A stretch of DNA of 64,000 bases from Ignavibacteriaceae bacterium (GTDB lineage: Bacteria; Bacteroidota; Ignavibacteria; Ignavibacteriales; Ignavibacteriaceae). Positions 44,380 to 64,000 of this stretch are shown here, in pieces. The notes under the pieces are model-generated. The model did no database searches and was not told the origin of the DNA. It worked only from the letters and a program-made list of their open reading frames with translations. Numbering within the stretch: the first letter of the stretch is position 1; the number at the start of each line of letters is the position of its first letter. The translations under genes and the position numbers were made by a program. The DNA lies in contig JABWCL010000008.1 of assembly GCA_013360295.1 (NCBI GenBank), positions 1 through 64,000 of the forward strand, read 5' to 3'.

Positions 44380-45075
44380 TCACGCCATCACCCTCTCCAG
44401 CCGATCCTTCCACTTTTCCCATGATGGCAGCATTTTGTTTTGAACTTCAAGGAATTTTGTGTTATGCCCGAAATGGACAAGGTGGCAGAGTTCGTGAACG
44501 ATAACGTATTCGATACACCCTTTGGGTGCTTTTATCAATTCTGAGTTTAGTATGATTCTTCCTTTTGCAGTGCAGCTTCCCCAGCGTTTAGGCATATGCT
44601 TAACCAAAACTTCCTTTGGTTTTACATTATATTTGGAAAAGCGTTCAACCCATTCATCGCAGTATTCCGTAAATTTTGCTACGGCGTGTTCTAAATACCA
44701 TTTTTCGAGCAGCTTCTTCGCTTCCCTTTTCTCCTTGCACGTCACGGTGAGAAACCGTCCGTGAAGTTTGACTGAATCCCTTTTACCTTTAAGTACTTTC
44801 AGTCTGTATTGCCTGCCCAGATAAAGAAACGTTTCACCGCTTACATATTTTTTTGGCGCTTGTTTTGGGAAATATGCCATGAAAAATGTTTGCTGCTTCA
44901 GTATCCAGGGAGCTCGTTTGTGCAATATCTGATTTATCTTTTCCTGATTTGCTTTCAATGGCGCTTTAATTAGCACTTCTAATTCTGGTGTAACAGTAAT
45001 TCCAAGGGTCTTTCGGTTAGTGTAACTAAGTATATAATCGATTGTTTTTGAACCGTATTGAAATGCCCTGGTCAT
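44380..45075 (-). CDS. YgjP-type zinc metallopeptidase (DUF45/WLM-like)
   Basis: A 231-residue protein with HELCH at 194-198 in VIVHELCHLVHFGH, the zinc site of the YgjP/DUF45 family. It also has the family's MPKRWGSCTAKGRI block just before. Its start overlaps the HsdR stop (TAATG), and such genes are commonly found at the end of type I restriction operons. Substrate and role there are not established; processing of the restriction complex or of DNA-protein crosslinks (SprT-like fold) has been considered. Complete and intact. Confidence 0.88.
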   Translation of the reverse strand: MTRAFQYGSKTIDYILSYTNRKTLGITVTPELEVLIKAPLKANQEKINQILHKRAPWILKQQTFFMAYFPKQAPKKYVSGETFLYLGRQYRLKVLKGKRDSVKLHGRFLTVTCKEKREAKKLLEKWYLEHAVAKFTEYCDEWVERFSKYNVKPKEVLVKHMPKRWGSCTAKGRIILNSELIKAPKGCIEYVIVHELCHLVHFGHNTKFLEVQNKMLPSWEKWKDRLERVMA

Positions 45076-48000: not shown

Positions 48001-48296
48001 TTATAGACATACTCACAAGAAGCCATATACCCTTCCTGCATCGGTATGTCTTTAAGAAACTGAATTGCAGATTGAATATTTCCAGTTGTGAAGCCGAAGG
48101 TGTTTCCTTTGTAAGTAATGGAATTTATTTTTTCAAGCTGGGAGCGCAAAATTCCCTCCAGAAGTACTGAAGTGGTCTTACCGTTGCGTTGCTTCAGAGC
48201 TTCATCTGGGGAAAGGTAGTTATACCCCAGATTTACCAAAATTTGAAGGGCTGGGATTTGGCTAATATGGTCTTCTTTGAAACTGGGGGTGTTCAT
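45075..48296 (-). CDS. hsdR: Type I restriction enzyme, R subunit
   Basis: A 1073-residue HsdR. The nuclease core is D153 ... E167-C-K169 (PD-ExK type, in VCIIECKRP). The helicase motor has Walker A GSGKS at 348-352 and motif II DEGH at 446-449. It also has motif III-like VAMTGTPL, and the C-terminal helicase motif DAPANTVLYLTRNLRDHSLLQ. The helical C-terminus contacts the M/S core. It cleaves unmodified DNA after ATP-driven translocation when assembled with HsdM and HsdS. It sits 4 bp after the SIR2-like gene. All key residues are present, so it should be active. Confidence 0.95.
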   Translation of the reverse strand: MNTPSFKEDHISQIPALQILVNLGYNYLSPDEALKQRNGKTTSVLLEGILRSQLEKINSITYKGNTFGFTTGNIQSAIQFLKDIPMQEGYMASCEYVYNLLTLGKSLEQSIDGDKKSYTIQFIDWQRPENNVLHVTEEYSVMRAGSSEHYRPDLVLFINGIPVCIIECKRPDMKDPLKQSISQHLRNQQDDGIRSLYVYAQMLLGIATNQALYATNATEEKYWNIWTEKFHNSEQEQSYNSTLQNLKNTPLAPEVKSNIFSERFRYVRNYFETLEQELLTSSEQDRYLYSLCRPERLLDFIFNFIVFETGIKKIARYPQYFALKKTMERIRTLQEGKRRGGVIWHTQGSGKSLTMVMLAQAIALDQSIKNPKIILVTDRVDLDNQITGTFIKCGRYVENATTGKKLLELLESASDAVITTIINKFETALKQTNKVFNSPDIFVLVDEGHRTQYGSFNIQMMKTLPNACFVAMTGTPLMKKEKNTAVKFGGLIDTYTVDKAVADGAVVPLLYEGRHALQDVNEKPIDDYFLKISEPLTEYQKTDLKKKFSKADQLNIADQKVYAIAWDISTHFRDNWQGTGLKGQLVCQSKIAAIRYKNYLDEIGIVETEVLISPPDEREGEESAYEKSDDLVKNFYQKMMNEHRTQKKYEENLISRFKTQQQPEIIIVVDKLLTGFDAPANTVLYLTRNLRDHSLLQAIARVNRVYPDKDFGYIIDYYGVLKELGEAMDKYTEMAEYDSDDLIGTLSTVAEEIKKLPQQHSELWDIFKSLPNKKDEEAYEQLLRDEAIRTTFYHKVSIFTRTLKLALSTLQFHKDTPEKLINAYKEDAAFFLNLRSSVNQRYSDTIDFSQYGKQLQKLIDKHITTAEVKPITELVNIFDKDEFNQELDKTFGAAARADTIASRTARHISESMDDDPAFYKKYSQMLRETIQAYVEKRISELEYLRQTTSIMDSVLSHTDKDIPEELSGNDTAKAFYGLVMESIGGHLSDETKRKSVSAESALGIDSIIQNLVMDGGKPIIDWQDKSNVTGKMLINIGDYLIDEVRDKYNITLSFDEIDAIAERCIEVAKRRYK

Positions 48297-48300
48297 TGCT

Positions 48301-49878
48301 TTATAATTTAGGCGTCAATAAATTTGATACGACTTTAAGCCATATGTCATTTTTTTGTAATCTGGTATCTGGGTTAACACAAATAACCTGAATATTCTCC
48401 TTAAATTTCATATCTAATCGAAGATTAATCATTAACTCTCGACGTATATCCTTGGTATCCTCTTTAATATTAACCCAAAATAGTTTTTTACCTTCTATTT
48501 CTATTAACTCTCGGAATAATCCATTTATATGGCTGTCGTCGGTATTAAAATTATAACCGATCACAATTATTGCATCAGAATTTTTTAATTTGTCAAATAA
48601 CTCAACATATCTTCTCGAAATACTTACGGAGGTCAATGGTTTTAGTCCACTTTGTGTTAAAATGAATGGAACTAGAATTTGATTTTGAGGAACAAAGTCG
48701 ATATCAGAATAATTAGTTACGGTGTTTTTGTAAGGATTGAAATAGTCAGTAACAGCCCCATTTAGGTGATAAATATGTTTGATTTTATTAAGAATTTTTC
48801 CTTCCAATACGTTTTCAATAATATTGTTATAATTGGACGTTCCAATAGCATTGATTTCTAGATCATATTCAGCACAGTTTCTTAAATCGCTATAGTAACC
48901 ATCATTCAAGTATTGTTTGTCAGCAATATTTGCCTTTATAAGAGAATGAGCAGAGCGCAAGAATAGAATCATTTTAGTGAATTTTGCCCATTCTTTTTGG
49001 GGTGAAAACAAGTAACGAAAATGACTATCGATTAATCCCTGATAATCGAGTATATCGCAGAAAAGTGAATCTAATACTTTTTGACATACTTTTACGAATA
49101 AATCCGTGCATTCACACTCCAGATAGTTTTCTAAAGCTTCATTTTTGGAGTTCGCCTGTTTGGTTTCTAAAAGTAATTCTATTGCAATTAAACCTGCTTT
49201 ACTATATTCGATTCTGAACATACCGAAGATATCATCAAAAATTGGAATATCGTCTGGCGCCTTTGTAAAAAGATCCTGATTTAATTTTTGTATCAATTCT
49301 TGTCCGTGCGCTCCCACAAAAAGCTGTAAAAATGCTCCAGCATATCGACGCAAAATATTCGTACTAATTTCGTTTTGAGCTGTACCACTTTTAAGTAAAT
49401 CAAGTATGGAGGAAAAGTATATTGATTCAAATAATTTGCTCTGTTTTGCAAGCATTTCATTAATTTGAACCACCTGACTGTATGTTTCTTCTCCAATACT
49501 CTTGCCTGTTAATTTACCGAATTTTGTCTCCAAAAGAGTTTCTTCAATCCTTAGCTCTTTTGCGGCGTTTCGAAAAAGTAAGTCAAAATTATCGAGTAGT
49601 GATATTATACGCGAGCGATTAACTTCTATAGTAGACTCAATTAAATCTCCAAATTCATTTTTCCCAAATGCATGAATCCTTTTATTTTTATAATCTTTGG
49701 GCAGCCATTCTGTTGCATAAATATCCTTTTCATTTATCTTATAATTCAGTTGATTGTGTAATTCAGTTTTGAGATTGGATACATTCTGTCGGAAAAGCTC
49801 CAGTGCAAATTTTCCACCAGATGGTAACCCATATGAAACTTCTGCTCCAGCACCAAAAAATATTCCTATCTTCTTCAT
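48301..49878 (-). CDS. SIR2-like protein inside the restriction operon
   Basis: A 525-residue protein. The N-terminus GIFFGAGAEVSYGLPS (GAG-x3-S at 9-15) is the NAD-binding start of SIR2-fold proteins. Later motifs are AIGTSNYNN (like TNYD), IYHLNGA (like HG) and AIIVIGYNFNTDDSHIN. The long helical insert (about 100-330) is typical of defence-type SIR2 proteins rather than deacetylases. It starts with a 4-nt overlap on HsdS and ends 4 bp before HsdR. A likely role is NAD depletion as a second line of defence. Catalytic residues are not certain from sequence alone. Confidence 0.75.
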   Translation of the reverse strand: MKKIGIFFGAGAEVSYGLPSGGKFALELFRQNVSNLKTELHNQLNYKINEKDIYATEWLPKDYKNKRIHAFGKNEFGDLIESTIEVNRSRIISLLDNFDLLFRNAAKELRIEETLLETKFGKLTGKSIGEETYSQVVQINEMLAKQSKLFESIYFSSILDLLKSGTAQNEISTNILRRYAGAFLQLFVGAHGQELIQKLNQDLFTKAPDDIPIFDDIFGMFRIEYSKAGLIAIELLLETKQANSKNEALENYLECECTDLFVKVCQKVLDSLFCDILDYQGLIDSHFRYLFSPQKEWAKFTKMILFLRSAHSLIKANIADKQYLNDGYYSDLRNCAEYDLEINAIGTSNYNNIIENVLEGKILNKIKHIYHLNGAVTDYFNPYKNTVTNYSDIDFVPQNQILVPFILTQSGLKPLTSVSISRRYVELFDKLKNSDAIIVIGYNFNTDDSHINGLFRELIEIEGKKLFWVNIKEDTKDIRRELMINLRLDMKFKENIQVICVNPDTRLQKNDIWLKVVSNLLTPKL

Positions 49879-51107
49879 GATCTGTATTCCTTGTTGATAA
49901 TTCGTTTCTTTCCAGTTAACAAAACCTGCATTAAGCCCTTTTTCAGTAAAATAATTTCATCCATTATTTCTTTTAGCCTTATTATTTCTTGGTCAATTTT
50001 TTCCAAAAATTCTGCAATTGCCTTTTGTTCTTCGATTTTGGGAGCCTTAAACGACAGGTTTTGAAGATGTTCCTGATTTAGTGTTTTCCCTTTTACAGCT
50101 TGTCCAGCATCAGATTTATCTACTGCTTTAGGAAGAATATAATATAGTAGTCGATCAGTAATTTTTGCTTCATCTGGATAAATCGCTACAATGGCTTCGT
50201 TTGTATATAAGTCTTTTCCCGCCCATGCCATTTTGCCAAGTGTCAGCTTAAAACTCATTAACAACGTACCCTTGGCTACTTTATTTGGCTTGCATTCACT
50301 TAATGCTATATCGGATAAGTACTCTTTTGAATCGAATAGTACTCTTTCTTTCATGTCTGAGATAGAAATCCAAATATTTTTAGGGTTAGGATTGTCCCAA
50401 TAGTTCTCATTTATACGAGAGGGGGTTTTACCAACTTTTAATGTTGCAACGGCACCAAGTGTAATATATTTCCACTCCCCACTAAACCCCTTCAACCTCT
50501 TTTTTCCAGTGAGCAGTTGCTGCATAAGGTACTTTTTGCGGAGTTCTTTTTGTTTAATAAGCTCCTGCGTTTTTTCAATGGCTTTATCCCAAGTGCTTAG
50601 CAAATTGGCTATGGCTTTTTGTTCGGGGAGAGGAGGAGCTGTGAAAATTATACTGTAAAAATCTTTGTGATTCAAATCTGGAATGGTACTTAAGCCAGCT
50701 TTTACTAAAAGAATATGTTGAACTTTTGTGGATCTTAAATATGCAAGTAAGAATGCCTTGTCAACTTTATTTAGATCATATTTGACCTTAAAGAAATTAT
50801 TATGAAAAACTCCACAAACATTTGAAACAACAATACCTGTATTCCCTGTTCTTGTCATTAAAATATCGTCTTTGTCGCAACAAACAGAACTGTTGGGGTT
50901 CAGGATATATTCTTTCTCTTTTTGGTTATTGAGGTATTGAATAGTAATATAAATTTGGCTACCTTCCACAAAACTTTTGAGCCTTTCATCAATTGGAATT
51001 TGAAGTCCTTGGTTAACGGTGCAAATATCGGAGAATTTTAATTCCTCCCAGTCCTCAGGTATCCACCCAAGTGCAGTAAGCTTAAACCCAGGTTTACTTT
51101 TCTTCAC
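49875..51107 (-). CDS. hsdS: Type I restriction enzyme, S (specificity) subunit
   Basis: A 410-residue, full-length HsdS with two target-recognition domains (about 1-165 and 205-360). Each is followed by a conserved helical spacer: PLPEQKAIANLLSTWDKAIE ... LLTGKKRL, and EEQKAIAEFLEKIDQEI ... LLTGKKRI. The GWIPEDWEE start is typical. It sets the bipartite DNA sequence read by the HsdM/HsdR complex. It overlaps the RhuM gene by 14 nt. A second, half-size S gene is at the head of the operon. Confidence 0.93.
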   Translation of the reverse strand: MKKSKPGFKLTALGWIPEDWEELKFSDICTVNQGLQIPIDERLKSFVEGSQIYITIQYLNNQKEKEYILNPNSSVCCDKDDILMTRTGNTGIVVSNVCGVFHNNFFKVKYDLNKVDKAFLLAYLRSTKVQHILLVKAGLSTIPDLNHKDFYSIIFTAPPLPEQKAIANLLSTWDKAIEKTQELIKQKELRKKYLMQQLLTGKKRLKGFSGEWKYITLGAVATLKVGKTPSRINENYWDNPNPKNIWISISDMKERVLFDSKEYLSDIALSECKPNKVAKGTLLMSFKLTLGKMAWAGKDLYTNEAIVAIYPDEAKITDRLLYYILPKAVDKSDAGQAVKGKTLNQEHLQNLSFKAPKIEEQKAIAEFLEKIDQEIIRLKEIMDEIILLKKGLMQVLLTGKKRIINKEYRS

Positions 51108-52122
51108 TTTTTCTGCCCCTTTTTGGTTTTCCTGAAATCTTTTTTACTTCTTTGTCAAAATCACTCTCAAAGCTCCTGTCCTGCAATACACGGAATTTGT
51201 CATATTCGCTCTGCGCCAATGAAAAAGCAGCTTCATGGGAGACTTTGCCAGCATCTTTGAGTAAGCTGTAATCATTAAACTTAAGGAATCCGTCTAATTT
51301 CGAAGCCCATTCTTTCATGGTCATTGGAATTTTCCGTTCTGCCTGGTTTTCTGCATAATCAAGGTACATAACCACAACCCGATTGAGGGCTTTCAATTCC
51401 TCTTCAGTAAGATAATTCTTCGCGACACCTACGTCGGATTTCATGATTTTTCCTGTTGGGGATTGTTTCCAAGTGGTAAGTCCCATATTTGGCTTGGAGG
51501 CATTAGCCCGTTCAGAAATTAGTTCTGAAGCTGTTTTACCAGTTATTGCCCAGTGCAGTTTGTTTTGTACTGTTTTATAAAACTGTTGGGTTGTGTCTGA
51601 GTTAGGGTCATAATCAATACTGCATTCGGCGTAAATGTCCGTAATCTTCTGATAAAACCGCCTTTCGCTCGCCCTAATTTCCCGTATACGCTCAAGAAGC
51701 TCGCCGAAATAGTCTTTGCCAATTTTTGCACCTTGTTTCAGGCGCTCATCATCCAGAACAAATCCCTTAACTATAAATTCTCGCAGGGTATTTGTAGCCC
51801 AGATTCTAAATGCCGTCGCCTCTCTGGAGTTTACCCTATAACCGACGGCGATAATCGCGTCCAGATTATAAAATTGTATATCTCTGGCGACATTCCTATT
51901 CCCTTCTTTTTGAACTATCCGAAATTTTCGGATAGTTGACGCCGCCTGCAATTCCCCTGAATTAAAAATGACTTCTAAATGATCATTTACAGTACGAACA
52001 TCAACGTTAAACAATTCCGCCATCTTTTTCTGCGACAGCCAGAATGTTTCACCCTCGTAATAAACCTCAACTGTAGCATTACTTTCAGGCGTAGAGTATA
52101 ATAGAATTTCAAAGGTCTGCAT
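51094..52122 (-). CDS. RhuM-family protein
   Basis: A 342-residue protein of the virulence RhuM family: VEVYYEGETFWLSQKKMAEL, a helix-turn-helix-like segment (FNVDVRTVNDHL), the conserved YNLDAIIAVGYRVNSREAT and FRIWATNTLREFIVKGFVLD, and the C-terminal QNKLHWAITGKTASELI. Such genes are often placed between hsdM and hsdS in type I operons. Their function is not established; a DNA-binding or modulating role is usual speculation. It is 2 bp after hsdM. Confidence 0.88.
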   Translation of the reverse strand: MQTFEILLYSTPESNATVEVYYEGETFWLSQKKMAELFNVDVRTVNDHLEVIFNSGELQAASTIRKFRIVQKEGNRNVARDIQFYNLDAIIAVGYRVNSREATAFRIWATNTLREFIVKGFVLDDERLKQGAKIGKDYFGELLERIREIRASERRFYQKITDIYAECSIDYDPNSDTTQQFYKTVQNKLHWAITGKTASELISERANASKPNMGLTTWKQSPTGKIMKSDVGVAKNYLTEEELKALNRVVVMYLDYAENQAERKIPMTMKEWASKLDGFLKFNDYSLLKDAGKVSHEAAFSLAQSEYDKFRVLQDRSFESDFDKEVKKISGKPKRGRKSEEK

Positions 52123-52124
52123 AC

Positions 52125-53657
52125 TTATATTCCCAATTCTTCAAGATATTTCTTCATTTCTTTGCGTACGTCTGCAAGTTCGTTTTCCAGCTCTTCAATG
52201 CGCTTCTGTACGGCGGCGATGTCAATTTCTTCCTCCTCTTCAAACGTATCAACGTAGCGGGGGATATTCAAATTAAATTCATTTCCTTTTATTTCCTCAA
52301 ATGTGGCAACGTAGGCGTATTTCTCTTCAGTCACTCCAGCATTAAGTTTTCCAGAATTGAATTTTCTGTATGTATCAACGATATGGTTAATGTCTTCTTC
52401 GCGCAGCTTGTTCTGGTTTTTTCCCGCCTCAAAATGTTTGCTCGCGTCGATAAATAAGATATTTGTGTTCTTTCTCTTTCCTTTATTGAATATCATTATT
52501 GCGGCAGGAATTCCTGTACCAAAAAACAGATTTGCTGGCAGGCCAATAACGGTCTCAAGAATGTTCTCCTCAATTGTCTTCTGCCTTATCTTTCCTTCCG
52601 CAGCGCCTCTGAACAATACTCCGTGCGGAACAACAATCCCGACTTTACCTTTTCCTTCATAAGCGGTTTCAATCATATGGCAAATAAATGCCCAATCTCC
52701 CTTGCTTTTCGGAGGGACTCCGCGCCAGAAACGGTTATAGGGATCGGTTGCCGCTCCTTCAGCGCCCCACTTATCTAAACTGAACGGGGGATTCGCTACA
52801 ACAGTATCAAACTTCATCAGGGCATCACCTTCTTTAAGCTTAGGATTGCCGATTGTATCTCCCCAGCGTATTGTAGCATTGTCAAAACCATGCAGGAACA
52901 TATTCATCACAGCCAGGGCCCACGTGCTGCCGTTTGCCTCCTGCCCGTAAACAGAAAAATTATCAGAACCAATTTCTTTTGCAGCTTTAATCAGCAGGGA
53001 ACCTGAACCGCAAGTTGGATCACAGATACGGGCGCCAGGGGCTGATTTAGTAAGTCTGGCCAGCAGAGTTGATACTTCGCTCGGCGTATAAAACTCACCC
53101 GCTTTCTTTCCTGCATCGGAGGCGAAATTAGCAATTAAAAACTCATATGCATCACCAATAATGTCCCTGCCTTCCAGGTGCGAAGGACGAAGATCCAGCT
53201 TTGCGTCGCTGAAATCAATCAGCAAATTCTTTAATCGGTTATTCTTATCTTTTGCATCGCCGAGATTACTTGAATTAAAATCAATATTTCTGAAAATACC
53301 AGAGCCATCTTCGCCGCCAAGTTTCTCTCGGTTTGATTCTTCAAGATCGTTAAGTGCAATGTTGATTAGCTCCCCGATATTTGAATCATTCCTGTGATCA
53401 AACAAGTACTCAAATGTGCAATGCTCGGGCACTACAAACCTTTCGTGTTTCATCGCCCTTGCAACACGCTCTTTATCTTTGTTGTACTTCTTCATGTAAG
53501 AATCATAAATATCGCGGTGCACATCGCTGACATATTTGATGAAAAGCATTGTTAGAATGTAATCCTTATACTGACTCGGGTCTATCACCCCCCTGAAAGT
53601 ATCGCATGCTTTCCAAACGATGTTGTTAATTTCTTTTTGAGTTATTTTTGTTTCCAT
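52125..53657 (-). CDS. hsdM: Type I restriction enzyme, M (methyltransferase) subunit
   Basis: A 510-residue HsdM. I take the ATG at 53657 because GCGGA precedes it and homologues begin with KITQ-EINNIVWKACDTFRG. The TTG at 53684 would overlap the half-HsdS gene. N6-adenine methyltransferase motifs are FYTPSEVSTLL, DPTCGSGSLL (SAM binding) and NPPF at 289-292 (catalytic). The C-terminus is a coiled coil (VQKRIEELENELADVRKEM) for contact with HsdS. It protects host DNA and forms the core enzyme. Intact. Confidence 0.95.
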   Translation of the reverse strand: METKITQKEINNIVWKACDTFRGVIDPSQYKDYILTMLFIKYVSDVHRDIYDSYMKKYNKDKERVARAMKHERFVVPEHCTFEYLFDHRNDSNIGELINIALNDLEESNREKLGGEDGSGIFRNIDFNSSNLGDAKDKNNRLKNLLIDFSDAKLDLRPSHLEGRDIIGDAYEFLIANFASDAGKKAGEFYTPSEVSTLLARLTKSAPGARICDPTCGSGSLLIKAAKEIGSDNFSVYGQEANGSTWALAVMNMFLHGFDNATIRWGDTIGNPKLKEGDALMKFDTVVANPPFSLDKWGAEGAATDPYNRFWRGVPPKSKGDWAFICHMIETAYEGKGKVGIVVPHGVLFRGAAEGKIRQKTIEENILETVIGLPANLFFGTGIPAAIMIFNKGKRKNTNILFIDASKHFEAGKNQNKLREEDINHIVDTYRKFNSGKLNAGVTEEKYAYVATFEEIKGNEFNLNIPRYVDTFEEEEEIDIAAVQKRIEELENELADVRKEMKKYLEELGI

Positions 53658-53670
53658 TGTTATTCCGCTT

Positions 53671-54222
53671 TCAAATTTTTTCAATAATTCTTGTATCTGT
53701 GATTTGATCTTTGAGCGACATCAGTTCATTCTGGATGCACTTTTCTTTTTTCCGCAGCTCATCAACTTTAAGGATCAGTTGCTGTATATGAAGGTCGGGG
53801 ATTTTAACTTCCAGATTGCCAAGGGCTTTCATTGATATGGAAGCAATCGATGATCCCTTTGCTTCGGATTTCAATTTTTTTTGGCTGTCGGGGTGATTAA
53901 GGAACCATACGAGGAAATCGGGAAGTATTTCTTTTGTGGGTTTTAATACGAAAAAGGAAGAAGAGGCTACGGCTGAGGGATATTCGTCCCTATAAATCGC
54001 GGCAAGGTTTTTGTCTCCCTTTGCTGCAAACAGAATATCGCCAGCGTTTAGCAGGTGATGGGAGAGTCTATCGGTTATAGATATTTCAGGTATAAGATGA
54101 GTGATCAATTGCCCCCTTTCATTGAAGTCTTTCAATTGAATGTAAACAGTATTGCCGAACTGATTCGGCTTAAGATAAATCCCTGTTTGGATTCTGACTA
54201 TGTCTTTAAGAGCTGGCACCAA
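53671..54222 (-). CDS. Half-size HsdS-like specificity subunit
   Basis: A 183-residue protein with one target-recognition domain (IVRIQTGIYLKPNQFGNTV, SSSFFVLKPT, FLVWFLNHPDSQ, GSSIASISMKAL) and one helical tail (IQQLILKVDELRKKEKC). This is the layout of half-S subunits that act as dimers. It starts at TTG 54222, or GTG 54219. It is the first gene of the operon, 23 nt downstream of a strong Bacteroidota-type promoter. It may offer an alternative specificity to the full HsdS. It is not a fragment of that gene by sequence. Confidence 0.85.
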   Translation of the reverse strand: MVPALKDIVRIQTGIYLKPNQFGNTVYIQLKDFNERGQLITHLIPEISITDRLSHHLLNAGDILFAAKGDKNLAAIYRDEYPSAVASSSFFVLKPTKEILPDFLVWFLNHPDSQKKLKSEAKGSSIASISMKALGNLEVKIPDLHIQQLILKVDELRKKEKCIQNELMSLKDQITDTRIIEKI

Positions 54223-54565: not shown

Positions 54566-55849
54566 TTAAATAAGATTAATCAAACAATAATTTTTCTTAC
54601 CAATTCGGATTACTAATAATCTTTCAGATATAGCTGATTCAAGGGTTATCGTATAATTGATGTTCGCACACTTTTCATTGTTTATATAAACGCCACCACC
54701 ACTAACCAGATCCCTGGCCTCACGTTTACTAGCGCATAGGTTAATTTTAGTTAATAATTCAATCACATTAATTCCATTGCTTATCGCAGTTTTATCCAGC
54801 TCTCTTTTGGGAACATCATCAAATATTTCTAGTACCTGATCTATAGTCAGGTCCTTAATCTCGCCACCGAATAAAACGTTGGAGGCTTTAATAACTTTTT
54901 GGAGGGCTTCTTCACCGTGAATAATTTTTGTGATTTCGGAGCTCAATATTTTTTGAGCTAATCTCTTTGAAGGATCCTGCCGATGTTCTGAAATAATCTG
55001 TTCAATATTATCAAGCTCCAAAAATGTAAAATATTTCAACATTTTTTCAACATCATCATCAGTAGAATTTAACCAGTACTGATAAAACTTATAGGGAGAT
55101 GTAAGCTCAGAGTCTATCCAAAACGCATTACCTGCGGATTTACCAAATTTTTCTCCATTCGAAGTTGTAACCAAAGGAAAAGTAATTCCAAAAACCTCGG
55201 TTTGCCTTAATTTCCTCACCAAATCTATTCCGGCAGTTATATTACCCCATTGATCATTCCCGCCCCCCTGAATCATGCACTTATGATTATCATATAGGTG
55301 CAGGAAATCGTAAGCTTGCATAAGCATATAACTAAATTCTGTATAACTCAGTCCTGTTTCCCGCTCCTTATCTTCCAATCGTCGCTTAACTGATTCCTTG
55401 CTGAGCATGTAATTAATCGAGAAATATTTGCCAATTTCCCTAAGCCATTCAATAATACTGAGTTCTTTTAACCAATCGTTGTTATTCACCATTACAGCAG
55501 CATTAGTTCCCTCGAAAGTGAAAAATTTACCCAATTGTTTTTTTATGGCTCTAACATTTTGTTCGATATCCTCAGCCGAGAGTAGTTTTCGCTCCGTACT
55601 CCTACCCGAGGGATCACCGATCATACCTGTAGCCCCGCCAACAAGTATAATTGGCTTATAACCGGCTCTTTGTAAGTGACACAATACCATCACTGGGAGC
55701 AGGTGTCCTACGTGTAAACTTGTTGCGGTTGGATCAAATCCTATATATATTGGGACAACGCCTCTTTGCAATTCTTTGATTAATTCTTCTTTGTTGCTGA
55801 TTTGTTCAATCATGCCTCTTTGTAAAAGAGTTTCTAAAACGCTGGTCAT
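54566..55849 (-). CDS. tyrS: Tyrosyl-tRNA synthetase
   Basis: A 427-residue, complete class I synthetase. HIGH-type motif HVGH at 46-49, KFGKS at 234-238, the tyrosine/adenylate pocket sequences GGATGMIGDPSG and QGGGNDQWGN, and a C-terminal S4 RNA-binding domain (ASKREARDLVSGGGVYINNE). It charges tRNA-Tyr. Its start overlaps the 191-residue gene by 4 nt. It ends an operon with a tyrosine-decarboxylase-like enzyme and sigma-54-type regulators, not a housekeeping setting. This recalls tyramine operons of lactic-acid bacteria, where a second tyrS precedes the decarboxylase. Probably a paralogue of a housekeeping copy. Confidence 0.95.
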   Translation of the reverse strand: MTSVLETLLQRGMIEQISNKEELIKELQRGVVPIYIGFDPTATSLHVGHLLPVMVLCHLQRAGYKPIILVGGATGMIGDPSGRSTERKLLSAEDIEQNVRAIKKQLGKFFTFEGTNAAVMVNNNDWLKELSIIEWLREIGKYFSINYMLSKESVKRRLEDKERETGLSYTEFSYMLMQAYDFLHLYDNHKCMIQGGGNDQWGNITAGIDLVRKLRQTEVFGITFPLVTTSNGEKFGKSAGNAFWIDSELTSPYKFYQYWLNSTDDDVEKMLKYFTFLELDNIEQIISEHRQDPSKRLAQKILSSEITKIIHGEEALQKVIKASNVLFGGEIKDLTIDQVLEIFDDVPKRELDKTAISNGINVIELLTKINLCASKREARDLVSGGGVYINNEKCANINYTITLESAISERLLVIRIGKKNYCLINLI

Positions 55850-56421
55850 ATATAATTCTCCGTATTATAAATTTCCTTAAATCTTCTTATCCATTGGGTA
55901 TCAATTGATGAAGAAATATTATAAAAAAATGATTCTTCTAAATGCGCCACATTAACCTCTAATAGGTTGATAATTTTTTTCAAAGTTATCACGCAGAATG
56001 GCTCTTCTAATAATATGTTCCTATAATCATGCAATAACGGGATAATCGCTCTTGAGATATTATCAATATCCATGACTAATAATTCCGGGGAAAAGCGGGG
56101 GGAACATAACCTCTCTAAAGATAATTCATATAGATTTTCAGATGATAGTACGAGAACAGAGCTGTTGCCATGCCTCTTGTTCATAATTTTTAGCCAGACT
56201 TCAGGATAAGGAGGTATATTCCATCTAAGTGTTTTTCTACCATCTTCTATAATACACTCGTAATAATTATTTATTATAAGAATCCTTGCTTTAGAATATT
56301 TCGCAACAGCAACATCATTTAATACATTATCTTTATACTTTTGAATGGACATTATTTGAGATAGAGTATTAACCAACAAGCTCTCTGATCCCACATAAAA
56401 CGCAAATCCGTCGACGATCAT
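55846..56421 (-). CDS. Unknown protein between the decarboxylase-REC and TyrRS genes
   Basis: A 191-residue product with no family recognised. It overlaps tyrS by 4 nt (ATGA) and starts about 1 nt after the decarboxylase-REC stop, so it is tightly coupled to both. It appears alpha/beta (ARILIINNYYECII, SSVLVLSSENLYELSL, ELLVMDIDNIS), then helical. The strand-acid pattern LLVMDID is faintly like a receiver domain, but no phosphorylation triad can be assigned. Probably a dedicated subunit of this operon's product complex. Confidence 0.7.
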   Translation of the reverse strand: MIVDGFAFYVGSESLLVNTLSQIMSIQKYKDNVLNDVAVAKYSKARILIINNYYECIIEDGRKTLRWNIPPYPEVWLKIMNKRHGNSSVLVLSSENLYELSLERLCSPRFSPELLVMDIDNISRAIIPLLHDYRNILLEEPFCVITLKKIINLLEVNVAHLEESFFYNISSSIDTQWIRRFKEIYNTENYI

Positions 56422-56422
56422 T

Positions 56423-58828
56423 TTAGTTGCCGGTTAATTCGGTTAAGTATTCCCAAAATCTTTCCTGAAAAGATTTTGTGAGATTTTGATTCGAGTCCTT
56501 ATCTACACAGTTAATCTTCATATCCGATTTATAAGAACTAATCAACAGATCAATTTTTTCTTTGTTTTGATTTAAATAACTGGAATTAAACAGCACCATT
56601 TTCAGGCTATAATGCATAGGGTCTTTGAGTATGGTTTCGAACAATTCAATTCCCCCCTCATCATTATGTTTTCCAGTTAAATTTATATCAAGTATAACCA
56701 AATCGTACTCCCGGTTGTTTAGGACGCTTATTGCGGTTTCCTTGTTAAGTGCTTGATCAAAAACAATAGCATTATTACCCCTAAAATTAGGAGAATCTAT
56801 CAACTGTTCCTTTATGGTCGGGTTATCATCAATGATTAATATTTTTATTTTTCTCATAAGCTTATCAATCATCATCTTATTAATTTCCACCACTATTGCA
56901 TGTATAAGATAATCACTGAACTCTTGCAATATTGATTGGGAATGAACATTCTGAGCAGTAACAGTGAACGGGCTCATAACCACAGATCTTAATACTGGAA
57001 AATCCGAGTTTTCATCAAGGTCGATTTCGATATTATGATGTGAGAAGTATTTTATTAAGTCCTTAACTTTAAGCTCTGTGCTGACAACCATAAAAGTTTT
57101 ATTTTCAGTTGTAGGCCATAAGTGATATCTTAACAGTCTGTCATGAAGCTCTTTTAACCTGCTAAGTTTTCGAATGTGTTTATTATAAATAAAATAATTA
57201 AGAATATTTGTTTCTGGATATTTATTAATGATATGTATACCAATGTCATACTTGTTATCTTTTTCCAAATGCACCGCAAGACTTAGCGCGCCCATCATAG
57301 ATGATAGTATAATTTTTCCATGACCCGCAGTATTTAGGGGAATAAGGCTTGTGGACAAATAAATTGCCGTGGCGGCAGCGCCCGGCCTTGATCCTTCAAC
57401 AGTAAATCTTCCAACAAACGACGGATCATCTCGCCATAAATAAGGAGCATCAAAAGATACAAATTCAAAGCTTTTTTTGTTCTCAAACAAGATCATACCG
57501 GCTGCGTAGGGAATATAACCGAGCTTATGCGGGTCTAATGCTAGGCTATGTGAATATTTAACCGCAGACAATTTTTTTATAATTTTATCTAATGGCACTA
57601 AATCAAGGAAATTCTGCATCTCATTTAGATCAGGCTCAATTTCAGAAACAAACAGTTCCTTTCTTATGATTTCCTTAATTTCTGCGGATTGTAAGAATTC
57701 TCCCTTAGCGTTCTTTAACGCAGAGAATAAATATCCGCCATATGCTCCGTCTATATGCCACCAGCACCCCAATTCCCGTACTCTGTCTTTAATCTTATCT
57801 ATTTGATCAATGCTGCCTTGCTCGGTTGATCCCAAGATTGATACCGTAGCCAATATAATTTCCTTTTCGCGAATGGCTTTCTCTGTAACTTCGAAATATT
57901 TTTCCGTATCTATACTAAATTCCGAGTTATAATTAACGGCGAGCAATGAATTTTTACCAAGTCCCAATATTTCAATAGCTTTTGGTATGCAGTAGTGTTT
58001 GTTGATAGCTGCAATAATTTTTATTCCACCATTTAAGTACTTTTCATGTTTTTCTTTAGGAAAAGTATCTTTTAATAAATCAAAAAACATACTAATTCCA
58101 AGAGATTGTAAAGAATATTTGTCTATTTCTTTATGATATTCTTCTTTTATGAATTCTGTTTTGGTTGTCACTTCGTCATATATCGTTATTATTTTATCTG
58201 GTGAATATCTTAGAATATCGTAACAAGAACATTCATTTACCAGTTCATCAACTAAGCCTATTTCAATTAGTATTTCCTTTATTATGCTACTTTGAGTATT
58301 CTTGAGCATGCAGCAAAGCGAGAGGGGCCAAAGTTTAATGTTTCTTGCTACCCATAAAGCTTGAATATTCGCGGCAGTACCGCCACTGGTTATATAACCG
58401 CTTCCTTTTTTTGAATCGAATCCAACCATATTCAGGTATTCTCTAATCGCCAAATCCTCTAATTCGCTGGTAATGGGAGATGATTCACGGGCCACATTAT
58501 TTTGATTGTATAAAAGCCCGGCTATATATCCAATTAAACCTGGTATTAACAAATCCGTATTCATGTGTCCCAGATACCTTGACGAAGCAAAAGGAACATT
58601 CTGCTTTGCTCTTGATAAAAAATTAAAAACGGTGTCTCGCATATTATCATAAAATTCCAAGTAATCTTTATTGGTTTTATCCGCGTGTCTGATTGCAGGC
58701 TTATCATTGGGATAAAAATTTCGTCTCCAATAAACATGATCGGCGATTATATCATTTATCAGACTCTGAAATTCCTGATGGTTTTCACCTTTCGGGCCAA
58801 GCATAAAGGATTTTATATTACGATTCAT
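56423..58828 (-). CDS. Tyrosine-decarboxylase-like PLP enzyme fused to a receiver domain
   Basis: An 801-residue protein. Residues 1 to about 655 are a group II PLP decarboxylase closest in pattern to bacterial tyrosine decarboxylases: SSRYLGHMNTDLLIPG, LYNQNNVARESSPITSELE, ITSGGTAANIQALWVARNIK, WWHIDGAYGGYL. The PLP lysine is K435 in LDPHKLGY. Residues about 661-790 form a response-regulator receiver domain: acidic pair D667-D668 (LIIDDN), phospho-acceptor D714 (LVILDINL), FNSS near the switch position. Phosphorylation might control amine formation, or the enzyme might be a sensor. Neighbours are two sigma-54-type regulators and TyrRS. I know of no such fusion. Confidence 0.88.
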   Translation of the reverse strand: MNRNIKSFMLGPKGENHQEFQSLINDIIADHVYWRRNFYPNDKPAIRHADKTNKDYLEFYDNMRDTVFNFLSRAKQNVPFASSRYLGHMNTDLLIPGLIGYIAGLLYNQNNVARESSPITSELEDLAIREYLNMVGFDSKKGSGYITSGGTAANIQALWVARNIKLWPLSLCCMLKNTQSSIIKEILIEIGLVDELVNECSCYDILRYSPDKIITIYDEVTTKTEFIKEEYHKEIDKYSLQSLGISMFFDLLKDTFPKEKHEKYLNGGIKIIAAINKHYCIPKAIEILGLGKNSLLAVNYNSEFSIDTEKYFEVTEKAIREKEIILATVSILGSTEQGSIDQIDKIKDRVRELGCWWHIDGAYGGYLFSALKNAKGEFLQSAEIKEIIRKELFVSEIEPDLNEMQNFLDLVPLDKIIKKLSAVKYSHSLALDPHKLGYIPYAAGMILFENKKSFEFVSFDAPYLWRDDPSFVGRFTVEGSRPGAAATAIYLSTSLIPLNTAGHGKIILSSMMGALSLAVHLEKDNKYDIGIHIINKYPETNILNYFIYNKHIRKLSRLKELHDRLLRYHLWPTTENKTFMVVSTELKVKDLIKYFSHHNIEIDLDENSDFPVLRSVVMSPFTVTAQNVHSQSILQEFSDYLIHAIVVEINKMMIDKLMRKIKILIIDDNPTIKEQLIDSPNFRGNNAIVFDQALNKETAISVLNNREYDLVILDINLTGKHNDEGGIELFETILKDPMHYSLKMVLFNSSYLNQNKEKIDLLISSYKSDMKINCVDKDSNQNLTKSFQERFWEYLTELTGN

Positions 58829-58861
58829 ATTTCTGCCTTATTATAGTATTAATATTGTTTA

Positions 58862-60805
58862 TTAGGTTAAATAGTACTGTTGTAACGCTTGCTTAAGAAA
58901 TTCATCTTTATTGATAAACATTTGTTTTGCCTTATCACTTTGGTTGTCTTTAACCATATTTGATATATTCCCCTGACATATATTATATAAAATATATAGC
59001 AGTTTATCTTCTAGCATCTTTGAGCGCACTGCGTCCGAAACATTAAAAACCTTTAGAAATTCATCTTTCGCGGCTTTAGTCTTGATACTTGAATTTCCGA
59101 ATAATATCTGAGCCACCCCGGTTATTGGTAAAATTGTATCTTCCCGCCGATCATATGACAGCATAAAAATAAATGCTGCTTTAATTAAATTCCCCAACAT
59201 TAACGCTCTTGATTCTTCCATTTTGGGGATTAACCCTTTAAACTCAAGAGGATTTAAAGAATCAAACGGAAAGGCTTGAATTTGCTTTATTAGAGTAGCG
59301 CTTGATTTCAATTCCACTTTATTATTGTCAGTTTTTGCGCCATGGGTAACATTGAGGATGTTTTTAAACTCCAGATGATTAGATGATAAATATCTTAAGA
59401 TTTTAAATTTCTGAACTGCTGAAAATAACACCCTCTCTAACCCTCGAATGTTTTCATCCTTCCAGTCATGATCGATGAGTTTGTTAAGGGCATCATCTGT
59501 TAACTCTCTTTTTTGAGCTGAAAGTAGTTTCTCGAATTTGCGCAGAAAATGAATAGCAAGACTAGGGATATCTTCCTTACGCTCTTTTAAGGATGGAAGG
59601 ATTATTGGTGAAAACGCGTTAATTCTTGCCAGCAAATCGCTTCTATACTTTTTGCCAGAGGCCATTGCTTCGAAGCGATTTGTCGCTAGAACAACCTGTA
59701 TGTTTGGTGTGGGCTCTATGGGGTCTTCTGCACCTAATCTCTTGGTTTCTCTTATGTTTTTATCCAGTAAACGAAGTAACTTGGATTGCACTGTAAGAGG
59801 AATCTCTCCAAATTCATCCACAAATAAAGTTCCTTTATCCGCTTTTTCGGCTGCTCCCTCTTTTGCATAAAGAGCATTGGTAAAGGCTCCCCGCACCCAA
59901 CCAAATAATTCCCCCTCAATAAGTGTTTCACTTACTCCTTCGGTAAACACTGTGTATAGGATACCTTTACGATTAGACATTTTATGAATATAGGAGGCGA
60001 TTAACTCTTTTCCAGTTCCAGTTTCACCAACCACCAAAATATTATCTCCGCCCTTATCGAAATTAATCATACTTCTGTTTCGAGCCTCTCTAAGACATCT
60101 TAAAAGTTCTGTTGAGCCACCAATAATGTAATTGTAATTATTGTTTTTATTATCAGCAATTCGTTCCGCTGTTAGAAATAAACGATCTACCATCTCGTTA
60201 TCTTCTAACAATCCATACTCAAATAGCAGTTTTAGTATTCCCCTATAGCCGTCAATTTCTGTCTTTTCGATAAACCCCATTACACCAAGATAAGAAAACT
60301 TCTTTTCATCATAATCTTCACGTTGACTGGCAGACATAAGGATAATTGGCAGATTATTATATTCCGGCTCCTCTGAGAGAGCTTCAACAACAGTTAATCC
60401 GAAATTCTCCTCATTAAATTTTATATCAAGCAAGATCAAAGACCAGCGGGGACGTTTCTTCCACCCGCGACTGATTGCCTCTTTAACTCCCTCTAAATCA
60501 TTAGTATACTTATCACCTCTAATTTTCTGACCAGAATGGAAAAATACTTTTGCCACAGGGTGATATAAAGGTTCATCTAATCTTAAGCATTGATTTTCCT
60601 CCTTTTTTTTCTCCATATTCATTGGCCTGATATAATTGTATTTATCAGCTATATCTTTACTAATCTGATCAACATCTCTTTCAGTTATATTTATCAGCCC
60701 ATTCGCAATGCAAAAATCTTCTCTGTCTTCAGAATTTTTTTCTCTGCCAAGACGATCGTCAATAACCAATATCCGTGGTAAGTCTGATATAATAATTTCA
60801 TTCAT
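58862..60805 (-). CDS. Sigma-54-type AAA+ response regulator with atypical receiver and GAFTNA loop
   Basis: A 647-residue protein. The receiver has acidic D16-D17 and phospho-acceptor D127 (LILLDIKF). The about 110 residues between them, against about 40 normally, show a large insertion. AAA+ domain: Walker A GETGTGKE at 260-267, the sigma-54 contact loop is GAFTNA (306-311) rather than GAFTGA, Walker B LFVDE (327-331), and arginine finger region RSDLLARINAF. The C-terminal 190 residues lack an obvious Fis-type HTH. The altered loop suggests weakened or changed sigma-54 contact. Overlaps the upstream 161-residue gene by 4 nt. Confidence 0.85.
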   Translation of the reverse strand: MNEIIISDLPRILVIDDRLGREKNSEDREDFCIANGLINITERDVDQISKDIADKYNYIRPMNMEKKKEENQCLRLDEPLYHPVAKVFFHSGQKIRGDKYTNDLEGVKEAISRGWKKRPRWSLILLDIKFNEENFGLTVVEALSEEPEYNNLPIILMSASQREDYDEKKFSYLGVMGFIEKTEIDGYRGILKLLFEYGLLEDNEMVDRLFLTAERIADNKNNNYNYIIGGSTELLRCLREARNRSMINFDKGGDNILVVGETGTGKELIASYIHKMSNRKGILYTVFTEGVSETLIEGELFGWVRGAFTNALYAKEGAAEKADKGTLFVDEFGEIPLTVQSKLLRLLDKNIRETKRLGAEDPIEPTPNIQVVLATNRFEAMASGKKYRSDLLARINAFSPIILPSLKERKEDIPSLAIHFLRKFEKLLSAQKRELTDDALNKLIDHDWKDENIRGLERVLFSAVQKFKILRYLSSNHLEFKNILNVTHGAKTDNNKVELKSSATLIKQIQAFPFDSLNPLEFKGLIPKMEESRALMLGNLIKAAFIFMLSYDRREDTILPITGVAQILFGNSSIKTKAAKDEFLKVFNVSDAVRSKMLEDKLLYILYNICQGNISNMVKDNQSDKAKQMFINKDEFLKQALQQYYLT

Positions 60806-61287
60806 AGTATTAGCTCCTTCTTTAAATCTCTTAATAAATCAAATACTTTCAAAGTTAGTTCATTCATTTTACTCATATGGATTAAAAGAGTGGAAGAGTC
60901 AAGATCATGTTTACAAATGTCAGCGTAAATAAAATCTATCTCAAAAACAAGGTCGGAAATCAGCGGAAGCCCGGGATAAATTTGAATTAACTTGCCTGCT
61001 TTAAGCGCCACAACAAGAAGCTTTTTTTGAAAATCATCTGCATTTTTCAGTGGGTCAAGGCGGAGAAAGCACAGCAGTGTTTGATATGTTTCGTAGTTAT
61101 CAATTAACCACTTTATATTATCCCTTAAATCTTCCCATAGTTTCAATTTTATTCTTAGGTCTGTTATTGCAATGCGATTAATTTTCACCTGTGTTATCGC
61201 TGCACATAATCTTGTTGTGAATTTTGGAAGTTGGTCGTGGGAAATTCCTTCCCTCTGTCTTACCCATGTCAAGTCAGGAGGTGTCAT
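60802..61287 (-). CDS. Small helical protein of the decarboxylase-REC operon
   Basis: A 161-residue product, apparently all alpha-helical (LRIKLKLWEDLRDNIKWLID, FQKKLLVVALKAGKLIQI, MSKMNELTLKVFDLLRDL). No transmembrane segment and no known domain. It begins 3 bp after the NtrC-like gene and ends overlapping the next regulator's start (ATGA). The size and helix pattern would suit an adaptor or a histidine-phosphotransfer-like bundle; several histidines are present but no HPt motif stands out. Confidence 0.65.
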   Translation of the reverse strand: MTPPDLTWVRQREGISHDQLPKFTTRLCAAITQVKINRIAITDLRIKLKLWEDLRDNIKWLIDNYETYQTLLCFLRLDPLKNADDFQKKLLVVALKAGKLIQIYPGLPLISDLVFEIDFIYADICKHDLDSSTLLIHMSKMNELTLKVFDLLRDLKKELIL

Positions 61288-61290
61288 TTT

Positions 61291-62811
61291 TTAATTCATT
61301 AATTCTTCAATATGTGTCCTAATTTGCGGATACTTTTCATAGTCTGATATTCCCCAGGGTGCCTTTGACAGTCTTCTGATTAAATCATTAAATCCTTTTG
61401 CACTCGGAGCCTTGTTTTCGGGATACATTATCCGCATAAATTCTGCTTTCCAGTGATTGCCCTTATAAGATTTTATTCGTTTTTTTAATAAGATCGCCAA
61501 TTTCAATTCCGCAACTATTCTTTCTTCAGCCCAATTCTCAACAATATTCGACATACCATCCGATCCTTGCGAAATACCGGTGGATGACCCTGTTTGTTTC
61601 GTAATATTCTTTAATTCTGCCGGAAGTGAATCTAAATCTATTGTTTCTGACCGGCAGATTATCGCGGCTCTTTCAACTATGTTTTTAAGTTCTCTAACAT
61701 TGCCAGGCCAGGAATATGCTCTTAAGGCAGAAAGTGCATCATCACTGAATCTTTCGGCTCTGTAAGATGCGCCCGGACCCGTCTTAAACTTTTTCAAAAA
61801 CAAATTTGCAAGTATAGGTATATCATCTTTTCTCTTTCGAAGAGGGGGCAAAGATATTTCAAATGACTTAATACGATATAAAAAATCATTTCTTATAAGG
61901 TTATTATTCACCAGAATGTTTATATCTTCATTTGTCGCAGTAATTAGTTGAAAATCGGAGATCAGATTTTCAACTCCTCCAAGCCTGTAAAATGTTCTGG
62001 TTTCTAATACTCGGAGTAGTTTCCCCTGTAGTTCCATTGGAATACTGCCTATTTCGTCTAAAAACAGCACTCCTTTGTGTGCTCTTTCAATTTTACCAAT
62101 GTATCTTTTATCGGCCCCGGTAAAGGCTCCCTTTTCGTGTCCGTACAGCTCATCATCTAACAGTTCTGACCTGGAGTGCGCACAATTTTTATCAATAAAC
62201 GAGTATTTTCTTCTTGGGCCTTGTCTGTGAATAGATCGCGCCACCAATTCCTTCCCTGTGCCACTTTCACCGGTAATTAAGACTGCCGCTGAGCCCCCCA
62301 TAGCAACCCTTACTATCTGAGAACGAATCTTGCGTATTTCATTAGAGTTTCCCCAGAGCGCATAATCAGATTCATACGCATTTGGACTTAAATATATTTT
62401 CAGAAGGTTTTCCAACTCAGCCACCGCAGGCCTTTTAATTAAATACTCATTAGCCCCAAGTTCCATAGCCTTTTCAAGTACTTCCAGATCATTTTCAACA
62501 GATGTCATCATAAATATGGGAAGTAAAGGATATTCACTCCTGACAGCCTTAAGTATTTCCAACCCATACCTATCGTTTTTATCTCCATACATTACATCAA
62601 GAACCATTACATCAACATTACCAATCTCACTAATTTTTTTTAGAACGGGTCTATAAGAATAACTATTAGGTGACTCTTCCGCAGTTTCATAATAGAAATT
62701 AAAAGCGGGATCTTTTGCTAACAAGGAACCGAAAGAGGCAATGATAGTACCTTGTTCTTCCGGACGACACCACTGATCATCAACAAACAATATATTGTAA
62801 AAATTTCTCAT
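61291..62811 (-). CDS. NtrC-family sigma-54-dependent response regulator
   Basis: A 506-residue protein. The receiver domain has D11-D12, phospho-acceptor D72 and lysine in YLIKRP. The sigma-54 AAA+ domain has Walker A GESGTGKE at 181-188, canonical GAFTGA at 228-233, Walker B VLFLDEIG and the arginine-finger region IRNDFLYRIKSFEISLPPLRKR. The C-terminal 80 residues (FMRIMYPENKAPSAKGFNDLIRRL, split here) could be a DNA-binding part but are not a standard Fis HTH. This is the competent sigma-54 activator of the operon; the paralogue at 58862 may modulate it. No histidine kinase is visible in the window. Confidence 0.92.
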   Translation of the reverse strand: MRNFYNILFVDDQWCRPEEQGTIIASFGSLLAKDPAFNFYYETAEESPNSYSYRPVLKKISEIGNVDVMVLDVMYGDKNDRYGLEILKAVRSEYPLLPIFMMTSVENDLEVLEKAMELGANEYLIKRPAVAELENLLKIYLSPNAYESDYALWGNSNEIRKIRSQIVRVAMGGSAAVLITGESGTGKELVARSIHRQGPRRKYSFIDKNCAHSRSELLDDELYGHEKGAFTGADKRYIGKIERAHKGVLFLDEIGSIPMELQGKLLRVLETRTFYRLGGVENLISDFQLITATNEDINILVNNNLIRNDFLYRIKSFEISLPPLRKRKDDIPILANLFLKKFKTGPGASYRAERFSDDALSALRAYSWPGNVRELKNIVERAAIICRSETIDLDSLPAELKNITKQTGSSTGISQGSDGMSNIVENWAEERIVAELKLAILLKKRIKSYKGNHWKAEFMRIMYPENKAPSAKGFNDLIRRLSKAPWGISDYEKYPQIRTHIEELMN

Positions 62812-62813
62812 GA

Positions 62814-64000
62814 TTAAGTTCTATTAAAATATTTATTTGGTAAGTTTTTAATTTGAAGCATTGATAATGAACGATGAAGCCGATCTGCGTTTTGCCAGAA
62901 TCTCTCGAGATCATCCCGGCTATACTTTTCAATGCTTGTGGCTGATTTTACACTCCTAACAAATTTATCCACTTCATTAACAATGCTGTCAGGTTTTGAT
63001 AACATATCACTTATAATCAGTTCATAATCTCTTGTGGGTTGCAACTTATATCGTCTGACATCATCCAGCATAAATGATTCTATTCTTCTTTTTACTTCCG
63101 GCCAGTAATCTAGCGCCCTCTTAACTATATCATACCTTGCCATTACTACTGTGTCATCACGATCATTACCCGAGAGATAGTGAAAATAATCAAAAAGAAA
63201 AGCGCTTTTTTGCTCAACGCTCAGCTCATCAGATATTTCGCCCATTTTTAATAAAAATCTATTTTTAACGTAATCATGGTTTATTATAGATCTTTTTTTT
63301 TCATAATCTCTTATGACTTCATTATTTTCTTTTTTTTTTATTATTTCCTTGCATTCCGTATGTACTTCAGATAATAGATATGTCCACCCATCTTGATTAT
63401 CCGGAGCGGTAGCGTCGTTAGCCTCTTCAGAAAGCATAATTTTTCGAAATATTTTCCATAGCTTTAATATTTTTGACCCATCAATTAAGTCATTATTTTT
63501 CTTCAGATCCTCAGGGCTATTTCTTTCTACCTCTTCTTTAAGAACATCAAACCAGTACTTTCTGGTATCATCCTCTCTATTTATTGGCCCAACCAAGTAA
63601 TCACAACTTGTTCTGCTTTTTGCTTCAGCTAAAGTGTTATCGTCTATAAATATTGTCGTTCTGCTGTTTGAGACTCTGTCTGTTGATGAACTTTGTTCTC
63701 TAATTAATAAATTCTCAGGACTATGTAATACCAAGTAACCATACACCAAGATATCCAATGTAATCACAATATTTATGCCCTGATATTCTACAAATAATTC
63801 CTCAATTCTGTAGTTGTCTATTGATTTGGGCAATCTATGCTCACACTGCTCTATATAAGCAACATTTACGTATGTATAATGATATTTCTCAGTATATCCC
63901 ATATTTATGAGATATTTATTTATGTCATTATAAGTTGTTCTATCATCACCTCCAGAGAAAAATACAATTCGCCCCCCAATACCCAGTATATGAGAAGATA
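62814..64000 (-). CDS. Unknown protein, 5' partial at the window edge
   Basis: The frame runs from the stop at 62814 to the right edge with no stop. The ATG at 63902 is internal, because the upstream codons read HILGIGGRIVFFSGGDD. At least 395 residues are seen. The N-terminal visible part (RIVFFSGGDDRTTYNDI) has an SGG-x-D motif reminiscent of PP-loop ATPases, but the rest does not help. The remainder is charged and helical. It ends 2 bp before the NtrC-like gene, so it belongs to the same operon. No confident function. Confidence 0.65.
   Translation of the reverse strand, partial: SSHILGIGGRIVFFSGGDDRTTYNDINKYLINMGYTEKYHYTYVNVAYIEQCEHRLPKSIDNYRIEELFVEYQGINIVITLDILVYGYLVLHSPENLLIREQSSSTDRVSNSRTTIFIDDNTLAEAKSRTSCDYLVGPINREDDTRKYWFDVLKEEVERNSPEDLKKNNDLIDGSKILKLWKIFRKIMLSEEANDATAPDNQDGWTYLLSEVHTECKEIIKKKENNEVIRDYEKKRSIINHDYVKNRFLLKMGEISDELSVEQKSAFLFDYFHYLSGNDRDDTVVMARYDIVKRALDYWPEVKRRIESFMLDDVRRYKLQPTRDYELIISDMLSKPDSIVNEVDKFVRSVKSATSIEKYSRDDLERFWQNADRLHRSLSMLQIKNLPNKYFNRT

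Follow-up and report, generated by a model that had tools for sequence, protein, structure and literature searches.

The locus considered here raises the question of why an enzyme resembling tyrosine decarboxylases should carry its own phosphorelay receiver domain and be encoded among a tyrosyl-tRNA synthetase (TyrRS) and regulators of the sigma-54 type. The window, a stretch of 64,000 nucleotides from an Ignavibacteriaceae bacterium, corresponds to positions 1-64000 of a 122-kb contig and the two share one numbering. From the window alone, a preliminary description had taken three receivers and no kinase in view as pointing to an outside signal that controls aromatic-amine output.

The operon and its decarboxylase-receiver fusion

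Seven minus-strand open reading frames running from 54566 to the window edge overlap or lie no more than 33 bp apart, as had been described. The most downstream encodes a complete TyrRS (54566-55849; TIGR00234, 8e-129) with HVGH at residue 46, KFGKS at residue 234 and an S4 domain, and its start is overlapped by 4 bp by the gene for a 191-aa protein of no family (55846-56421). Upstream of these lie the genes for the 801-aa decarboxylase-receiver fusion, TyrDC-receiver (56423-58828), a 647-aa receiver-AAA+ regulator (58862-60805; Sigma54_activat, 3.9e-37), a 161-aa protein (60802-61287), a 506-aa NtrC-like receiver-AAA+ sigma-54 activator (61291-62811; Sigma54_activat 4.4e-55, Response_reg 1.4e-8, TIGR01818 2.4e-85) and a 476-aa protein (62814-64244) whose gene is cut by the window end at 64000. 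Both AAA+ proteins therefore match the sigma-54 activator family as proposed, but only the NtrC-like protein combines its receiver with the intact GAFTGA loop of NtrC-type activators; its partner reads GAFTNA, and to call the pair two ordinary sigma-54 activators is slightly too strong. Profile searches gave no confident family match for the 191-, 161- and 476-aa proteins, and single-sequence comparison of the 191- and 476-aa proteins with their positional counterparts in relatives gave no signal. The 476-aa protein matched the SseK/NleB glycosyltransferases in Pfam (SseK_NleB) below threshold (E ~1e-4, 22 bits against a cut-off of 25), possibly by chance, and that identity is not relied on.

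TyrDC-receiver matched Pyridoxal_deC (PF00282) at 1e-20 and Response_reg at 2.6e-7 in Pfam, and TIGR03811 at 8.8e-82 with 275 bits, below the equivalog cut-off of 905. A group II PLP decarboxylase occupies residues ~1-630 and is joined by a long linker helix (633-660) to the receiver (661-801). When aligned to the Enterococcus faecalis tyrosine decarboxylase (TDC), 15 of 17 checked active-site positions of the L. brevis and E. faecalis enzymes, with residue roles taken from PMC4904194, were identical, among them K435 (K392), H278 (H241), D360 (D328), Y441 (Y398), Y463 (Y420) and S480 (S440). The two exceptions are T151 in place of S159 and V616 at position 586, where L. brevis TDC retained over 10% of its activity with small residues only (PMC4904194); the substrate may therefore not be tyrosine. 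The receiver residues are canonical, comprising D667/D668, D714, S749 and K777, the last assigned by position. The PLP lysine K435 and the phospho-acceptor D714 had both been correctly named beforehand and are invariant across five fusions, as is S749. An AlphaFold2 model of the full-length protein had a mean pLDDT of 85.8, and its best PDB matches were TDCs with TM-scores of 0.85-0.88 on the target, while the receiver part was less certain (pLDDT ~58-77). Predicted alone, the receiver had a mean pLDDT of 71.6 and its best matches were nearly all response-regulator receivers, so that the CheY-like fold anticipated for it survived structure prediction. The fusion is real, judged by its catalytic and receiver residues and by the two folds predicted for it.

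The operon does not end with the window, and the same strand runs on past 64000. The next minus-strand genes encode a 582-aa receiver-HATPase protein (64237-65985), a 778-aa protein with a HATPase-like C-terminus recognised by reading the sequence (65957-68293), a 324-aa class II aminoacyl-tRNA synthetase (aaRS)-like protein close to type-2 SerRS (68244-69218), a 257-aa radical SAM protein (69222-69995), an ABC permease (70001-70774), an ABC ATPase (70758-71549) and a solute-binding lipoprotein of the NMT1/Ssu type (71832-72848). From the ABC ATPase to TyrRS, 13 genes overlap or lie within 33 bp of each other, and the solute-binding gene heads the operon 282 bp upstream of them. The class II aaRS-like protein is a stand-alone catalytic core, near type-2 SerRS and amino acid-[carrier protein] ligase.

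Contig positions 65985 and 68293 mark the starts of the two HATPase-like genes, both of which read towards the window. HATPase_c was matched by one protein of the window genome at 5e-4, below the Pfam cut-off, the remaining HATPase assignments being made by motif, and an N-box-like stretch is common to the HATPase proteins of three relatives. Searches of the PDB with phmmer returned nothing relevant for the HATPase proteins, a genome scan with the receiver-HATPase protein as query found no relatives, neither HATPase-like protein had a match among plasmids, and the 778-aa protein, searched across the phylum, was found in the source genome only. An NMT1-like binding domain at the start of the 778-aa protein was considered, and was unsupported in a pairwise comparison with the operon's solute-binding protein. 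The observation of three receivers and no kinase holds inside the window, but is an edge effect, since the operon continues with HATPase-like genes just past it. With probable kinases, assigned from weak profile scores and motifs, encoded directly beyond the edge, an outside kinase is probably not needed.

A divergent operon (73519-79149) encodes a vWA-like lipoprotein, a membrane protein, a 276-aa protein, an AAA+ ATPase and a DegT-type aminotransferase. The two operons are 670 bp apart, and this stretch contains two sigma-54-like sites, one facing each operon and each with one mismatch to the consensus, placed 38 nt before the probable start codon of the solute-binding gene and ~70 nt before the vWA-like gene. 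In 1000 dinucleotide shuffles the expectation was 0.01 sites for such a region, and not one shuffle had two sites. The usual C at -12 is missing from both. The genome encodes rpoN, and no sigma-54-like sites were found before the other operons in the upstream stretches scanned. The vWA-like lipoprotein has a MIDAS-type motif by eye and no Pfam match. The AAA+ protein matches PF00004 and is not of the MoxR type; this differs from the vWA-MoxR ternary conflict system, in which a MoxR-type AAA+ accompanies the vWA protein, here assigned by motif only.

Recurrence in other phyla and the second TyrRS

A TyrDC profile run against 84,980 species genomes, followed by genome searches, placed the same two-domain protein in receiver/HATPase operons of five other genomes from three phyla, giving six genomes in four lineages with the window genome. 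The receiver is kept throughout and TyrRS is present in four of the five, namely TM6 GWF2_37_49 (L040) and three Bacteroidota genomes (L045, L145 and L146); a WOR-3 genome (L038) has the operon without TyrRS. This recurrence makes the arrangement more than a chance assembly. What the preliminary description had proposed as a whole is upheld in part: a phosphorelay-linked TyrDC/TyrRS unit recurs in several phyla, but the operon brings probable kinases of its own, as well as an importer, a radical SAM protein and a class II aaRS-like protein. No genome searched within the genus, family or order of the window carries the fusion, and it was also seen on its own (L063).

Gene order is the same in L040 and L145, running from HATPase through an unknown protein, TyrRS, a small receiver-like protein and TyrDC-receiver to two receiver proteins. 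L045 keeps this order as far as its contig reaches, and L146 follows it up to TyrDC-receiver, after which comes a 799-aa protein for which no match was obtained among the other operons' receiver proteins. The WOR-3 operon begins with an importer and a HATPase gene and continues, further along, with TyrDC-receiver, receivers and NtrC. Ahead of the TM6 operon lie genes for a Liv-type importer and two radical SAM proteins, and after it comes a vWA-like/membrane/AAA+/DegT series resembling the divergent operon of the window genome; the AAA+ (E 4e-12) and DegT (3e-26) proteins of the two series are homologous, while the vWA-like and membrane proteins have little or no similarity. In genome G863 vWA-like and membrane genes lie upstream of the HATPase gene, with no adjacent importer. 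Upstream sequence is long enough at four loci, and an importer is seen at three of them; it precedes the HATPase gene in the window genome, TM6 and WOR-3 and is of a different family in each.

Every genome with an operonic TyrRS has a further TyrRS elsewhere, which in the window genome lies at C20:89710-90909 and belongs to a different subfamily from the operon copy. The tree placed the operon TyrRS of the window genome (G000) in one subfamily and the four other operon copies in the opposite one. Operon and housekeeping copies fell in different subfamilies in G000, G424, G863 and G579, and in TM6 they fell in separate clades of the same subfamily. On this evidence the operonic TyrRS has been recruited at least twice, from opposite subfamilies and always as a second copy. 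An association that has arisen at least twice argues for a functional link, and the enzyme probably protects translation while tyrosine is consumed. The operon TyrRS of TM6 is 73% identical to that of the Bacteroidia, which points to transfer of the unit.

Two side observations came from these searches. Salinibacteraceae-type TDC-like proteins (L050, L070, L084, L170-L173) end in a degenerate receiver without the acceptor aspartate, a pseudo-receiver. Near the TM6 operon, L129:193-6708 was read as encoding a receiver protein, a HATPase protein (783 aa) and a fusion of a receiver to a TraG/VirD4-like ATPase (939 aa).

Comparison with known systems

One of the nearest known systems is the tyramine (tdc) operon that enterococci and lactobacilli carry (tyrS-tdcA-tyrP-nhaC), where a second TyrRS likewise stands beside a group II tyrosine decarboxylase; here the two genes are separated only by that for the 191-aa protein. 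An extra tyrS is general in tyramine operons, with proposed roles in tyrosine sensing or in securing protein synthesis during decarboxylation (PMC3315439). The operon described here differs in having no tyrosine/tyramine antiporter among its genes, in the receiver fused to the enzyme, and in the presence of an importer, HATPase-like proteins and sigma-54 regulators. No T-box leader was found, Rfam returning a tRNA only in the 40 kb searched. On a plasmid of Photobacterium sp. DA100 (L030:6480-12523), a tyrosine decarboxylase is accompanied by flanking transporter genes and a second TyrRS, so that proteobacteria too have a counterpart of this tyramine operon.

The joining of a PLP decarboxylase to a CheY-like domain is not unprecedented, since acid-inducible Orn/Lys/Arg decarboxylases of the extended AAT fold have an N-terminal receiver-like wing used in oligomer building (PMC8503589). 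The present protein differs from these in belonging to the PF00282 family, in its C-terminal receiver with a canonical acceptor aspartate and in its phosphorelay operon. With response regulators of enzymatic output it shares a canonical receiver covalently joined to an enzyme and encoded with HATPase-like proteins, but here the output is an amino-acid decarboxylase, a case not found in the papers searched. The open-licence literature searched yielded no description of the fusion or the operon. The presence of similar clusters in unrelated bacteria suggests that an amino-acid-consuming enzyme is controlled by signal relay in a manner not yet described. If this is true, a response regulator with an amino-acid decarboxylase as its output would link two-component signalling directly with the production of amines or the depletion of tyrosine. 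Why decarboxylase operons should include an aminoacyl-tRNA synthetase is an old question, and one that can be tested directly here, an extra TyrRS having repeatedly been recruited next to such an enzyme.

Proposed mechanism and alternative explanations

The reading preferred here, to which we give about an even chance, is a self-contained phosphorelay module that has two outputs, a group II decarboxylase gated by its receiver and sigma-54-dependent transcription, with the second TyrRS protecting charging. The cue would be either an internal one or a solute that the ABC importer system of the operon captures, and would be read by the two HATPase (histidine-kinase-like) proteins. These would phosphorylate the receivers of the decarboxylase, at D714, and of the AAA+ regulators. 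Phosphorylation would alter decarboxylase activity by way of the linker helix between enzyme and receiver, and an aromatic amino acid, most likely tyrosine, would then be decarboxylated on demand. The NtrC-like regulator would fire the sigma-54 promoters of both the main operon and the divergent vWA/AAA+/DegT operon, and the second TyrRS, foreign to the genome's own TyrRS lineage, would keep Tyr-tRNA charged during tyrosine consumption. Control of aromatic-amine output, as first suggested, is plausible.

Two alternatives deserve weight, both of them fairly unlikely. The first is an anti-phage or abortive conflict system, in which infection would be sensed and the decarboxylase switched on, tyrosine drained and translation stalled, the extra TyrRS serving as an immunity or recovery factor. 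The surroundings lend themselves to this: the window reads as rich in conflict-type genes, type I restriction-modification genes (45075-54222) lie directly downstream of TyrRS in the window genome, restriction genes lie near the G863 operon (L167:5100-17000), the WOR-3 copy has candidate ubiquitin-like/JAB/E1 genes as neighbours in a region that looks mobile, and the patchy distribution of the unit, together with the identity between the TM6 and Bacteroidia TyrRS, points to transfer. However, PADLOC families match the core proteins only as generic AAA+ or receiver proteins, and the importer and sigma-54 control fit nutrient sensing better. A mobile and hitherto undescribed immune or signalling system, whose histidine-kinase-like phosphorelay would directly switch on a tyrosine-consuming enzyme with the foreign TyrRS as the cell's protection, is likewise regarded as unlikely. 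An attachment-site repeat of the nearby tRNA-Ser, expected for an integrated island, was not found in the 90 kb checked.

In the second the signalling architecture is the same, but the decarboxylase would take a different amino acid or a derivative, such as one made by the radical SAM or class II aaRS-like protein, to give a specific amine signal. V616 at the specificity position and the presence of those two proteins in the operon favour such a substrate, but TyrRS in five of the six operons points to tyrosine and at the remaining active-site positions checked the residues agree with tyrosine decarboxylases. It is very unlikely that the decarboxylase domain is a non-catalytic sensor of tyrosine or PLP feeding the phosphorelay, as its fusion to a receiver and its position among regulators might suggest, because loss of catalytic residues would then be expected, whereas the PLP lysine, catalytic tyrosine and cofactor-binding residues are intact and conserved across the fusions. 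A chance neighbourhood of unrelated genes, consistent as it is with the failure to find the fusion in other searched members of the family and order, is extremely improbable and is refuted by the recurrence of the fusion in such operons with overlapping genes.

Some further genes around these operons were recorded by reading their sequences. In the window, the conflict-type genes 15727-18672, 20665-23220 and 25694-28378 read, respectively, as a TIR-NB-ARC-TPR-like protein, a RelA/SpoT-like protein with a possible SLOG domain, and an AAA+ protein whose C-terminus is similar. The WOR-3 operon is followed directly downstream by L038:16975-19145, which encodes a candidate ubiquitin-like protein (213 aa), a JAB-peptidase-like protein (260 aa) and a ThiF/E1-like protein (268 aa).
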